A DNA stretch of 62,637 nucleotides, taken from positions 1 to 62,637 of the forward strand of contig PAQG01000011.1 of NCBI GenBank assembly GCA_002709645.1, written 5' to 3'. Position 1 is the stretch's first letter. Each line of letters opens with the position of its first letter. Position numbers and translations under genes: made by a program. Of this stretch, positions 13,317-22,467 are shown piece by piece. Below the pieces are notes generated by a model. It was not told where the DNA came from. It was given only the letters and a program-made list of their open reading frames with translations, and made no database searches. This DNA comes from Acidimicrobiaceae bacterium. GTDB lineage: Bacteria > Actinomycetota > Acidimicrobiia > Acidimicrobiales > UBA8592.

Positions 13317-14819
13317 ATGCTCGCTACTTCTTTAAAAATTGTAACCAGAGAACACGGTTCTAAAATCGCATACAAAACCGCGAGAGGAACAGAAATTACG
13401 TATCAAGAATTAGATCAATTCTCAGACGAAGTTGGTGCTTGGATCAACAATAGTGGACTAGCTGAAAGTTCTGTAGTAGCTCTTTGCCTCCCTAGTCATA
13501 TTGAATACATCATTTCTTATCTAGCAGTAGCAAAAGTTGGCGGTATTACCGCAGGAGTAAACCCACGGTTGACTTCTCGTGAACGTGAGGAAGCATTAGA
13601 GGTCCTTAATCCTGACTTAGTGATAACTGCAGCAGGTTATGAGACAGGCGTTGGAAGCAGATACAGGTCTGAAACTATTCAACTCAATCAAAGCACTAAT
13701 CAGATAATGCTCAAACAACGCCTTATTGGTGAAAAGCCTAGCGAATTAGAACCTAATCCGAATCGACCGGTCTGTATTTGTTTTACATCAGGTAGTACTG
13801 GAAAACCTAAAGGGGTTTGGTTTACCAATAAGCAACTACAAGCAATAAGTGATCTCGACACAGGCGGTTCCTGGGGTGGTGGCGGTCATCGGTATGCAAG
13901 TACTGAATTTGCGCATGTAGGTGTAATGACAAAACTACCGTGGTTACTTTCTTCTGCCGGAACCACGCATTTAGTTGAAAAATGGAATGCAAAGGAAATT
14001 CTTCAATTGATCCACGACCATCAGATGACGTCAGTAAGTGCTATCGCTCCACAAATCGCGCTCATGTTGAAACAGGAAAATATCGCATCACTTGATTTTA
14101 ACTCTGTCAAAGCAATCGTTACCGGAGGCGCATTTGCTTCTCCAGATCTCATTCGAGCTGGGAGAGAAACATTCGGAGCTCCGTGGTCAATTAGATATAG
14201 TTCAACTGAGTCAGGAGGAATCGGACTGGGGACACGTCTTGACGCAGATGATAGCGAGGCGTTACATACGGTAGGGAAACCGCGGGAAGGGGTCCAAGCG
14301 AAGATATGTGATGCCGCAGGTCAAGAACTTCCAAATGGTGAAATAGGAGAAATTTGGTTATCTTCTCCAGCTGTAATGAGTGGTTACTGGAATGACCCAG
14401 AATCAACAGCGATGGTTCTCAAAGATAATTGGCTCAAAACAGGAGATTTAGCATATATCAATGAGAACAATTGCTTTGTACTTGCAGGAAGAACAAATGA
14501 GATGTTTATACGCGGTGGATACAATATTTTCCCGCTGGAAGTGGAAGGGGTTCTAGCGGGTCATAGCAAAGTTTCTGAAATAGTTATCGTTCCTAGGTCA
14601 GATCAGGTCATGGGAGAAATTGGAGTAGCGGTGGTCGTCCCATTAGATATTGATAACCCACCAACATTGGAAGAAATTCGTCAATTTGGAGAAAAAGACC
14701 TTGCTTTATACAAGTTGCCGGAGGCACTTACATACATTCAAGAAATACCAAGAAATGCAACGGACAAAATTGACCGTAAACGGCTAAAAGAAATCATCCC
14801 GAAATTGATAGACCGCTAG
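13317..14819 (+). CDS. AMP-binding acyl-CoA synthetase family protein
   Basis: Class I adenylate-forming enzyme of 500 residues. The P-loop-like motif is TSGSTGKPKG (about residues 157-166), then YSSTESGG, the TGDLAYI motif, the hinge GGYNIFPLEVE and a C-terminal catalytic lysine context ATDKIDRKRL (usual ATGKIDR). It activates a carboxylic acid with ATP, most likely forming an acyl-CoA; chain length cannot be read from sequence. The start is uncertain: the best ribosome binding site (AAAGGA, 13287) points at a GTG at 13301 that is out of frame, so ATG 13317 is used. It converges with the next gene, overlapping by 4 bp. Confidence 0.88.
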   Translation: MLATSLKIVTREHGSKIAYKTARGTEITYQELDQFSDEVGAWINNSGLAESSVVALCLPSHIEYIISYLAVAKVGGITAGVNPRLTSREREEALEVLNPDLVITAAGYETGVGSRYRSETIQLNQSTNQIMLKQRLIGEKPSELEPNPNRPVCICFTSGSTGKPKGVWFTNKQLQAISDLDTGGSWGGGGHRYASTEFAHVGVMTKLPWLLSSAGTTHLVEKWNAKEILQLIHDHQMTSVSAIAPQIALMLKQENIASLDFNSVKAIVTGGAFASPDLIRAGRETFGAPWSIRYSSTESGGIGLGTRLDADDSEALHTVGKPREGVQAKICDAAGQELPNGEIGEIWLSSPAVMSGYWNDPESTAMVLKDNWLKTGDLAYINENNCFVLAGRTNEMFIRGGYNIFPLEVEGVLAGHSKVSEIVIVPRSDQVMGEIGVAVVVPLDIDNPPTLEEIRQFGEKDLALYKLPEALTYIQEIPRNATDKIDRKRLKEIIPKLIDR

Positions 14820-15445
14820 GTTTCTTCAGTTCTTTCAATGATACGACCTATCCAATTAATGTATGTTTCAGTTTCTTGAGCACCCGGTACGGGTAGGACA
14901 TTATTAATAAGCACAGTAGGAACAGCGGTAATTCCTTGATTAATCGCCTCATTGTGTTCTGAGATCACAGTATTTGTAAAAATTTCCCTTTTTTCTTGAA
15001 CAACCGAAAGAAAATGATCTGAATCCCCTCCTATTGAAGAGACTAAGTCAGCAAGAACATCCCAATTTGAAACAGTTCGGTTCTCAGAAAAATACGCTTT
15101 TAATAATCTGTAATGCATATCCATCGCCATTTCGGGCCATTCAGATAAGACAACCTTGTGCGCAATTTGTGCTGGAAGACTTCCTGAAGGTGGGGCATTT
15201 TGGGTTGCCCATGGTTGAAAATCTGCACGTGGTTCGAGGTCTGCCATCTTTTGCCAACCTCGTGTGTAGTTGACGAATTTCTCACGATCAGGAACTTTTG
15301 AACCGGATTTCAAAATAAAACTTTTCCAAGAAATTGAAACTTTTTCTCCGAAATGATCTTTGACCTCATCGAGACGAACCGTCCCGACATAACACCATGG
15401 TCAAAGAAAATCTGACCAAACAACTAACTCCACATGATTATCCAT
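14816..15445 (-). CDS. DsbA-family oxidoreductase, candidate selenoprotein (UPWC)
   Basis: From ATG 15445 the minus strand encodes V-E-L-V-V-W-S-D-F-L, then TGA (15403-15401), then P-W-C-Y-V-G-T-V-R-L-D-E and continues open to 14816 (209 codons). In FrnE/DsbA-like proteins the same place reads W-S-D-x-x-C-P-W-C-Y-I-G, so TGA replaces the first active-site Cys exactly. Later family features are intact, including the A-V-P-T-V-L-I-N segment with the cis-Pro. A SECIS-like hairpin follows the TGA. The best reading is a Sec-containing thiol oxidoreductase (UPWC). Without Sec insertion only an inactive fragment would be made. No sel genes are in the window. It is probably cotranscribed with the upstream fluC pair; a TTG at 15477 inside fluC is an alternative start. 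Confidence 0.78.
15361..15403 (-). promoter_or_regulatory. SECIS-like hairpin at the in-frame UGA
   Basis: In the minus-strand RNA the UGA begins an outer stem UGACC (15403-15399) / GGUCA (15365-15361). Above an asymmetric internal loop sits a 7-bp stem CGGGACG (15386-15380) / CGUCUCG (15376-15370), with one G-U pair and a GUU loop. The loop G is 22 nt after the UGA, inside the range seen for bacterial SECIS elements, which carry G/U in the apical loop. Confidence 0.65.
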
Positions 15446-15461: not shown

Positions 15462-15860
15462 TCAACGATTCCCAATTTCCAAACCAATGAATGCTAAGAG
15501 GACACCTATTCCAATTGTCATCAAAAGGTAAGTATATGCAGTGAATCGATTTCCATTTGAAGATTCATCAGCGGTTTGCATTATTACAGTTGAGAAAGTT
15601 GAAAATGAACCTAAAAGTCCTCCACCTAATATTGTGATAGTCGTAGGGTGGAAATCACTTGCTAGAAGTAAGCCCAAAAGGAAAGATGAAGAAAGGTTCG
15701 CGGAAAGCGTCCCCAACCATTGCGGTGAAGATCCCCATAGTTGAGAACCCCAACGTAATAGTGAACCAATACCAGCTACGAAAAGAAAACACGTTGCAGC
15801 CAATAAAGAATTATTTTGCCAAAAAGCTAGGATTGGCGTCGTCATCAAAACAAGGTTCAT
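15462..15860 (-). CDS. Fluoride channel FluC/CrcB family, subunit 1
   Basis: A 132-residue, four-helix protein. Fluc family marks are G-S-L-L-R-W near the start of helix 1, N-L-S-S-S-F in helix 2 and GLLGSFSTFSTVIMQ in helix 3, the Phe-Ser/Thr track lining the ion path. The usual N-x-x-G-S of helix 2 is N-L-S-S-S here, a milder variant. Actinobacteria and Firmicutes often have two adjacent fluC genes whose products pair in opposite orientation; this one overlaps its partner by 4 bp. Confidence 0.88.
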   Translation of the reverse strand: MNLVLMTTPILAFWQNNSLLAATCFLFVAGIGSLLRWGSQLWGSSPQWLGTLSANLSSSFLLGLLLASDFHPTTITILGGGLLGSFSTFSTVIMQTADESSNGNRFTAYTYLLMTIGIGVLLAFIGLEIGNR

Positions 15861-16237
15861 TTTGAAGCCATTCGATCCGAAAATAATTGTTTAGCGAAAA
15901 TGTATGCCAGTAATCCCGCAGTACTTGAAGCAAGTAAGTACGAAATACCAATTAGAAACCTTTCATCACGGATAAATTCAGCTAAATCAACAGAAAAAGC
16001 TGAGAATGTCGTAAATGCTCCGCAAAAACCACTGGTAGCCCCAGCTAACCATTGACCTCTCAGATGAGATCCTCCGATTAGAACACCAAGAAGACCGCAC
16101 CCAACTACATTGATAAGAAAAATTTGCCAAGGCCAGATTCCAGTCGCAGGAAGCAGTTCAAGCAAGCCCCAGCGTGCACAAGCCCCTAACATGCCTCCGA
16201 GGAAAACCATGGTGAATGATTTCCTATCCATGTTCAA
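15857..16237 (-). CDS. Fluoride channel FluC/CrcB family, subunit 2
   Basis: A 126-residue, four-helix protein with GGMLGACARWG, FLINVVGCGLLGVLIGG and GFCGAFTTFSAFSVD, the canonical Fluc signatures (G-x-x-G-A-x-x-R, N-x-x-G, T-F-S-x-F). It exports fluoride passively. It is upstream of, and overlaps, the second fluC gene. I looked for a crcB fluoride riboswitch in the 160 bp upstream and saw no match to its conserved blocks. Confidence 0.92.
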   Translation of the reverse strand: MNMDRKSFTMVFLGGMLGACARWGLLELLPATGIWPWQIFLINVVGCGLLGVLIGGSHLRGQWLAGATSGFCGAFTTFSAFSVDLAEFIRDERFLIGISYLLASSTAGLLAYIFAKQLFSDRMASK

Positions 16238-17181: not shown

Positions 17182-17796
17182 ATGTATATAACCGCGAGGG
17201 AAATAACTCCACTATCTGGTCGACTACAAGACACTATTGCCTTCGGGTCAGAATTAGTTGGAGTAATGAACAATAGACATGGATCAGCAATGGCGATGTC
17301 AACAGAACTTGGTGGAAATCCAAATAAAGTTTGGCTAACTGGTTTCTGGCAGTCTCTAGCTGATTATCAAACATTCACGGAAAGCTATATGGCGGACCAG
17401 CAGTTAACAGCAGCTATGAATGTTTCCAGCTCATTTATTGGCGAAACGCAAGATCAAATTGGACAAGTTATTCGCCAACCAGGTGAGAGAAAAGCTTTTG
17501 CCCAAATGCATAAAGGTCGTGTCAAAAGTGTGAATCTTCACGCAGGTATGGATTGGATGCTACGGACCGCTGATTATGTTTCGGAGCTCACAGGAACTGA
17601 AGCTGGTGTTGTAGCTCCTGTAACTGGCGATCAATACGAACTCATTTTCGTCAATTACGCAGATTCCCTACAAGAACTCCGTGGGATGGTAGAGAGTTGG
17701 AGTGTTGATGAAGGCTATCTTGCCTTATTCAATGAAGGAGTCGACTTATTTGAACCGCAATTTGATGTTACCTATACCCGTTTTATCGGAATGTAA
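17182..17796 (+). CDS. Unknown protein with two tandem alpha/beta-barrel-like domains
   Basis: A 204-residue soluble protein. The two halves look like a duplication: each has a beta strand, a helix with E-L-V-G/S-E-L-T-G, a strand with V-W-L-T-G-F-W or E-L-I-F-V-N-Y, then S-L-x-(D/E)-(Y/L) and a second helix. This pattern resembles dimeric alpha-beta barrel (ABM/NIPSNAP-like) proteins fused as a pair. No catalytic residue can be named. ATG 17182 is preceded by TAAGGA. The gene stands alone between pdxH and a hairpin-rich spacer and has a palindrome and structured leader upstream, so it is probably regulated on its own. Confidence 0.75.
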   Translation: MYITAREITPLSGRLQDTIAFGSELVGVMNNRHGSAMAMSTELGGNPNKVWLTGFWQSLADYQTFTESYMADQQLTAAMNVSSSFIGETQDQIGQVIRQPGERKAFAQMHKGRVKSVNLHAGMDWMLRTADYVSELTGTEAGVVAPVTGDQYELIFVNYADSLQELRGMVESWSVDEGYLALFNEGVDLFEPQFDVTYTRFIGM

Positions 17797-21342: not shown

Positions 21343-22467
21343 CTAAGATTTGAGGTGGTAGGTCATAAATCCATCTTCGGTTTTGCGAGTTAATTCACCT
21401 AATTCTTTGAGATGTTCAAGATGAGCAAATGTTTCACTCTCTGCCATATCTCCCCAAGCTCTTTCGCTGAAAAGCACTCTCATATAATCAGTCACGGAAC
21501 CATTTACTAGCTGTTCAGCGGCTGTTCGGATAGTTTCAAGCCTCTCTTCGTGATGCTCAATAATCTCAAGTGAGCGTTCTCCAAGGTTTGTAAATGGGTG
21601 ACCATGTGCCGGAAGAGCTATAGACACATTTTTGAAATGCGTCATTCTATTTAGAGAGTCAAAGAATTTTGCGAGAGGATCTATTTCAGGCGAAATACCA
21701 CCAATATGAGGTGTGATCGTTGGTAACACATGATCTCCAGAAAACATGACTCCATATTCGGGATCCCATAAACATAAGTGGTCATTTGTATGCCCAGGCG
21801 TATGAATGGATAGCCATTCACGGTCACCAAGACGTATAGATTCGTTATCGGTCACTTCTATCGTTGGTTCCGGTGTACGAAACCAAGAAGAATTAAATCG
21901 CCCCATTTTCTTAAAACGGTCTATTTCTTCTGGTGGAGGCATAGTTCGTTTTGATCCCCACGGAAGCCTTTCTGAAAATATTCGCTCAATAACTTGCTGT
22001 TGCGCATCATCAGAATTTGGATCTAGAGCAGCAGAATCCTCGTTTTCTAAAATTTCAGTGCGGTTGAAAGCCTTCCTAAAGTTTTCGTGTGTCAAAATAC
22101 TGGCATCAGTAGTTTCTCGTATTCGTTCAGCTGAACCGAAATGATCAAAGTGAGAGTGAGTAACGATAACAGTATGAATATCAGAAATTTTATATCCTGC
22201 TGTTTTCAGTCGATTTGTCAGAGCTGCCCAAGAATCATCTCCAGGTAAGCCAGGGTCAACAACAGCGATGCCTTGTTTGTCTTCGAGAACATAACAATTT
22301 ACGTGTCCAAGACCAGGAAGATTAACCGGAAGTTGTGTTCGGAGAATATTCGGAGCCACTTCTGAAACAATTTCGCTTGCCGGTTCCTGTTCCTCTTTCT
22401 TAGGACGTCTAACCTCATCAACATTCGCTGATTCTTTTTTTGTATCTTCAGAATGTGAGTGCGCCAT
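21343..22467 (-). CDS. Metallo-beta-lactamase fold hydrolase
   Basis: A 374-residue protein. Metal-binding motifs are THSHFDHFGS (H-x-H-x-D-H), the His in HTPGHTNDHLCLW, the Asp in MFSGDHVLP and the final His in ALPAHGHPF. A charged, Glu/Lys-rich stretch of about 35 residues precedes the domain, and about 80 residues with a winged-helix look (L-E-H-L-K-E-L-G-E-L-T-R) follow, as in LACTB2-like hydrolases. The substrate is unknown; thioesters or RNA are both used in the family. It lies 2 bp downstream of orn. Confidence 0.88.
   Translation of the reverse strand: MAHSHSEDTKKESANVDEVRRPKKEEQEPASEIVSEVAPNILRTQLPVNLPGLGHVNCYVLEDKQGIAVVDPGLPGDDSWAALTNRLKTAGYKISDIHTVIVTHSHFDHFGSAERIRETTDASILTHENFRKAFNRTEILENEDSAALDPNSDDAQQQVIERIFSERLPWGSKRTMPPPEEIDRFKKMGRFNSSWFRTPEPTIEVTDNESIRLGDREWLSIHTPGHTNDHLCLWDPEYGVMFSGDHVLPTITPHIGGISPEIDPLAKFFDSLNRMTHFKNVSIALPAHGHPFTNLGERSLEIIEHHEERLETIRTAAEQLVNGSVTDYMRVLFSERAWGDMAESETFAHLEHLKELGELTRKTEDGFMTYHLKS

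Follow-up and report, generated by a model that had tools for sequence, protein, structure and literature searches.

A predicted FrnE-like selenoprotein with a UPWC active site in Acidimicrobiia

The window analysed here is a stretch of 62,637 nucleotides from a marine Acidimicrobiaceae bacterium. On its minus strand, a frame of 209 codons (14816..15445) runs from an ATG at position 15445 to a TAG at 14818–14816 and encodes 209 residues, counting a selenocysteine (Sec) at position 15. Its single in-frame UGA, codon 15 (15403–15401), falls at the first position of a CPWC motif. An initial annotation of this DNA had proposed a DsbA/FrnE-like selenoprotein with a UPWC site here, and its frame, strand, coordinates and UGA position are exactly as we find them. 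The motif WSDFL-U-PWCYVG is conserved on both sides of the UGA, and the peptide across residue 15 reads MDNHVELVVWSDFL-U-PWCYVGTVR. The UxxC motif is therefore U15-P-W-C18, in which Cys18 is the sole cysteine of the protein. With the UGA read as Cys, the entire product forms one Pfam DSBA domain (PF01323, E = 5e-19, residues 7–194) that spans the UGA. The first strand of the fold lies right at the N-terminus of the protein, so no signal peptide is apparent. Mechanical ORF calling in the window yields a TTG-started ORF of 165 residues 3' of the UGA, and in relatives too the ORF listing begins the gene after the UGA. The gene is thus prone to wrong annotation, since callers that start after the UGA shorten the product.

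Directly upstream, with a 16-nt gap to the start codon, lies crcB2 (15462..15860, minus strand; Pfam CRCB, PF02537, E = 6e-18), a CrcB-family gene of the fluoride channel type. It overlaps by 4 nt with a second CrcB-family gene, crcB1 (15857..16237, minus strand; Pfam CRCB, E = 2e-23), and this paired arrangement is conserved in the genus. A convergent acyl-CoA synthetase-like gene (13317..14819, plus strand; Pfam AMP-binding, E = 1e-60) runs 4 nt into the 3' end of the selenoprotein gene. The positions of these three genes are conserved, and the order PNPOx / crcB-crcB-frnE(U) / acyl-CoA synthetase / serS is kept in most same-genus relatives where the contig reaches; one crcB match also lies upstream of the homologue in another genus (L050). 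The minus-strand genes crcB1, crcB2 and frnE are spaced tightly enough that they may be carried on one transcript. Rfam gave no fluoride riboswitch and nothing else credible around the selenoprotein and crcB genes. The product of serS supplies the Ser-tRNA required by SelA, and the proximity of serS to the selenoprotein gene may be chance. Elsewhere in the neighbourhood, positions 17182–17796 of the plus strand hold a 204-residue ORF without a Pfam match, and two related loci (L021 and L022) have ORFs of 203–215 residues beyond PNPOx.

The AlphaFold model of the selenoprotein (pLDDT 94.8, pTM 0.91) has a DsbA fold with an inserted helical domain and is nearest to FrnE. Its best solved match was FrnE from Deinococcus radiodurans (201 residues, rmsd 2.2, Z of 23.9, rank 1 using Foldseek and VIA-align), and further top structural matches were related disulfide oxidoreductases. 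Together with the PF01323 domain across the UGA, this agrees with the family named in the initial annotation. In the model, Sec15 lies immediately before a helix of residues 16–35, where the nucleophile is usually found. Kappa GST and 2-hydroxychromene-2-carboxylate isomerase have the same fold (Z of 18–20), and a selenoprotein with a role other than disulfide exchange, for instance as a seleno-peroxidase or a kappa-GST/isomerase-like enzyme, retains a small share of the probability. However, FrnE and other disulfide oxidoreductases are the nearest structural matches, and the resolving Cys18 is invariant across the aligned homologues. The reaction that we consider most likely is disulfide exchange, in which Sec15 would attack and Cys18 resolve. 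No NCBIfam model scored above its cut-off for the selenoprotein, and membership of the Rcas_1661 thioredoxin-like (seleno)lipoprotein family was rejected (23.5 bits, with 190 required).

We collected homologues from 60 related genomes, a 345-genome sample of the class and 15 loci of a species-level collection. TGA occurs at exactly codon 15 in 30 distinct homologues (36–100% identity), drawn from one genus and, beyond it, from the same family, order and class; no homologue in these sets has TAA or TAG there. Farther relatives have TGC or TGT at the aligned codon, and in our tree the position is UGA in 30/30 Sec-type genes and TGC or TGT in 13/13 Cys-type genes. The initial annotation had looked to relatives at this position to separate a Sec codon from a decaying gene; the close ones show UGA without random stops or decay, and the farther ones Cys. 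After the UGA, comparison of the window gene with its nearest relative (protein 86% identical) gives a dN of 0.09 and a dS of 1.33 (dN/dS of ~0.07), and with the next-nearest a dN of 0.20 and a dS of 1.29 (dN/dS of 0.15). These low ratios point to strong purifying selection on the protein sequence encoded 3' of the UGA and, with the single DSBA domain across the UGA, bear out the earlier view that both sides of the frame are intact and family-like. A relative at 26% identity from another family of the order (G044:C51:9988-10578) holds one in-frame TGA. In a plasmid search, only relatives of <30% identity appeared among the matches listed.

The 8-bp apical stem-loop of a bacterial SECIS element lies just 3' of the UGA (15368..15388, minus strand). 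Its stem starts 12 nt after the UGA and closes a 5-nt loop (15380–15376), in which G15379 and U15378 are invariant across 28 distinct sequences; G15379, in the hairpin 15388–15368, is the loop G that had been placed 22 nt downstream of the UGA. In the UGA genes 88.8% of the cells of this stem are paired and 10 are compensatory, with both sides changed; slid versions of the stem pair in 31–47%. The scores that we used ignore relatedness and are thus inflated: the covariation score of the apical stem was reached by 0/500 shuffles, and a codon-preserving null (synonymous codon replacement, 2000 rounds), which parts RNA from protein constraint, gave 7.17 of 8 apical pairs in UGA genes against 4.80 expected (z of 13.9, 0/2000), whereas Cys genes had 3.80 pairs against 3.88 expected (z of -0.4). 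Even with z inflated by relatedness, the contrast between UGA and Cys genes in these alignments is clear, and the conserved hairpin was not found in the Cys-type genes. The comparison indicates that the apical hairpin is conserved in UGA genes well above amino-acid demand.

The initial annotation had the hairpin begin at the UGA itself. The apical stem-loop of that proposal is conserved; the basal stem UGACC/GGUCA (15361..15403, minus strand) pairs in the window, but in relatives only 58.6% of its cells are paired and covariation is absent. We therefore rejected the basal stem as part of the conserved SECIS and do not regard it as required. The single-sequence fold of the window hairpin is unremarkable (z of -1.64; 12/200 shuffles fold equally well), and it is the comparative evidence that carries the case for a SECIS.

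The unremarkable fold and the 165-residue ORF called downstream would both sit well with a pseudogene, its UGA a true stop or the result of a sequencing error, and its downstream ORF either a remnant or a short protein with an internal start. The comparative data refute this, and we give it next to no credence: the same UGA stands in 30 distinct genes without TAA or TAG, the motif is conserved on either side of it, purifying selection downstream is strong and the SECIS is conserved beyond coding needs. A local sequencing error is excluded because 29 other genes carry the same UGA.

The genome containing the window is a metagenome-assembled genome (MAG) of 1.83 Mb in 56 contigs, 85% complete. 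It encodes tRNA-Sec (66.6 bits, cut-off 47; tRNA-SeC(tca) by ARAGORN, anticodon UCA), adjoining selB (313.5 bits) and selA (314.6 bits) on one contig, and selD (363 bits) on another, so all the components that the initial annotation had named for a search of this genome are present. Contigs C10 and C15 were assigned to the genome by binning, and relatives show the same machinery. Contaminant contigs are an unlikely source, since C10 and the window have the same G+C (0.42–0.44) and same-genus genomes have adjacent selA and selB. The UGA gene is found in 20 of the first 60 genomes, and selB in 10/10 of those that are at least 85% complete; the three UGA genomes in this set without both selA and selB are 74–83% complete. 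In the second set, selB is present in 12/12 genomes of at least 95% completeness, including 3 of Cys type. Reading of UGA by genome-wide recoding (e.g. as Trp) or by a near-cognate tRNA, without selenocysteine, is compatible in principle with an in-frame UGA but has a negligible chance of being correct, given normal TGG Trp codons in the gene (one of them two codons past the UGA), Cys rather than Trp as the homologous residue, the complete Sec machinery with tRNA-Sec, and selB, selA and many window ORFs that are open under table 11.

The selD gene (contig C15, genome G000, locus L066) has its own in-frame UGA on the minus strand (first base 21655), whose context is SHGSG-U-GCKLDPSEL. This UGA lies at the Sec/Cys site of selD, and the genome therefore has at least one further selenoprotein gene. 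Within the window, TGA codons beside Cys-type motifs were scanned and judged by eye, and no other convincing selenoprotein was found.

We compared the Sec and Cys forms on a tree built with the active-site residue masked, a quick tree that gives no direction of change. The two states are clustered on it (4 changes where shuffles gave 11.5). Two sister pairs, each within a single genus, differ in state: L072 (Cys) with L079 (Sec), and L074 (Sec) with L078 (Cys), with support of 99 and 98. These two well-supported pairs indicate, at the level of sequence, that Sec/Cys exchange has occurred more than once, within two genera. Such close pairs, in genomes that mostly retain selB, offer a natural set in which to test the benefit of selenium to a DsbA-fold enzyme.

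Thus, the UGA at codon 15 almost certainly specifies selenocysteine, as an active-site residue of an enzyme of disulfide exchange. The interpretation given in the initial annotation is supported, and each of its refuting conditions that we checked turned out in its favour. We hold with high confidence that the gene encodes a DsbA-fold selenoprotein of the FrnE group, its UGA read as Sec by SelB, tRNA-Sec and the stem-loop, and its product acting as a thiol(selenol)-disulfide oxidoreductase. For Sec insertion, catalysis and cellular place, we infer the following. SelB and Sec-tRNA(Sec) with anticodon UCA would bind the stem-loop just 3' of the UGA and place Sec at residue 15 of a soluble, probably cytosolic protein. 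Sec15, which replaces the first Cys of CPWC and sits at the N-terminal end of the first active-site helix, would attack, Cys18 would resolve the mixed selenenyl-sulfide, and Pro176 would occupy the cis-proline place of the thioredoxin fold. A bolder proposal, which we put forward tentatively and think somewhat doubtful, is an Acidimicrobiia-wide FrnE selenoprotein subfamily in which the single resolving Cys and the place behind two crcB genes mark a distinct role, with Sec/Cys exchange ongoing within genera. The gene would show that a widespread actinobacterial class, on whose use of selenium little has been published, makes selenoproteins.

Comparison with known proteins places the selenoprotein closest to D. 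radiodurans FrnE (PDB 5cnw, 5cp1, 5xwh), which is both the best fold match and the best PDB sequence match, at 22–23% identity. That protein is a disulfide oxidoreductase with Cys where the window protein has Sec, and is longer, with a C-terminal cysteine region (5cp1 is the C239S mutant) that the 209-residue selenoprotein lacks, its last residue, 209, aligning to FrnE residue 225. We therefore call the window protein FrnE-like and not FrnE; the cysteine region may be special to Deinococcus FrnE rather than group-defining. SCO1869 from Streptomyces coelicolor (PDB 3gl5), a Cys-type DsbA-like protein of the same phylum, has the same domain over its full length but differs in having Cys instead of Sec, at ~20% identity to the window protein.

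Among selenoproteins, the counterpart is the DsbA-like protein of COG2761, which we take to be the FrnE group. It shares with the window gene PF01323, Sec as the first residue of CxxC, a SECIS just after the UGA, an occurrence in marine bacteria and widespread Cys homologues. In 2005, nine sequences of DsbA-like selenoproteins, assigned to COG2761 and having UxxC and a predicted bacterial SECIS, were reported from the Sargasso Sea (PMC1088965), a 2016 survey has the DsbA-like protein in its selenoprotein family table with the numbers 41 and 45 (PMC5029168), and a 2026 review lists a 'DsbA-like protein form 1' (PF01323, UxxC; PMC13188914). The kind of protein has thus been known since 2005, and the initial annotation overstated the novelty in presenting a candidate new selenoprotein. 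For the lineage it stands: in the open literature, searched by titles and abstracts, no relevant paper pairing selenoproteins with Acidimicrobiia was found, and none places a DsbA-like selenoprotein in this class. The 2005 sequences (e.g. AACY01178397), which the paper gives by accession and COG, probably belong to the clade of this Acidimicrobiia gene. As far as we searched, what is new is the lineage, the depth of the evidence and the Sec/Cys exchange within two genera.
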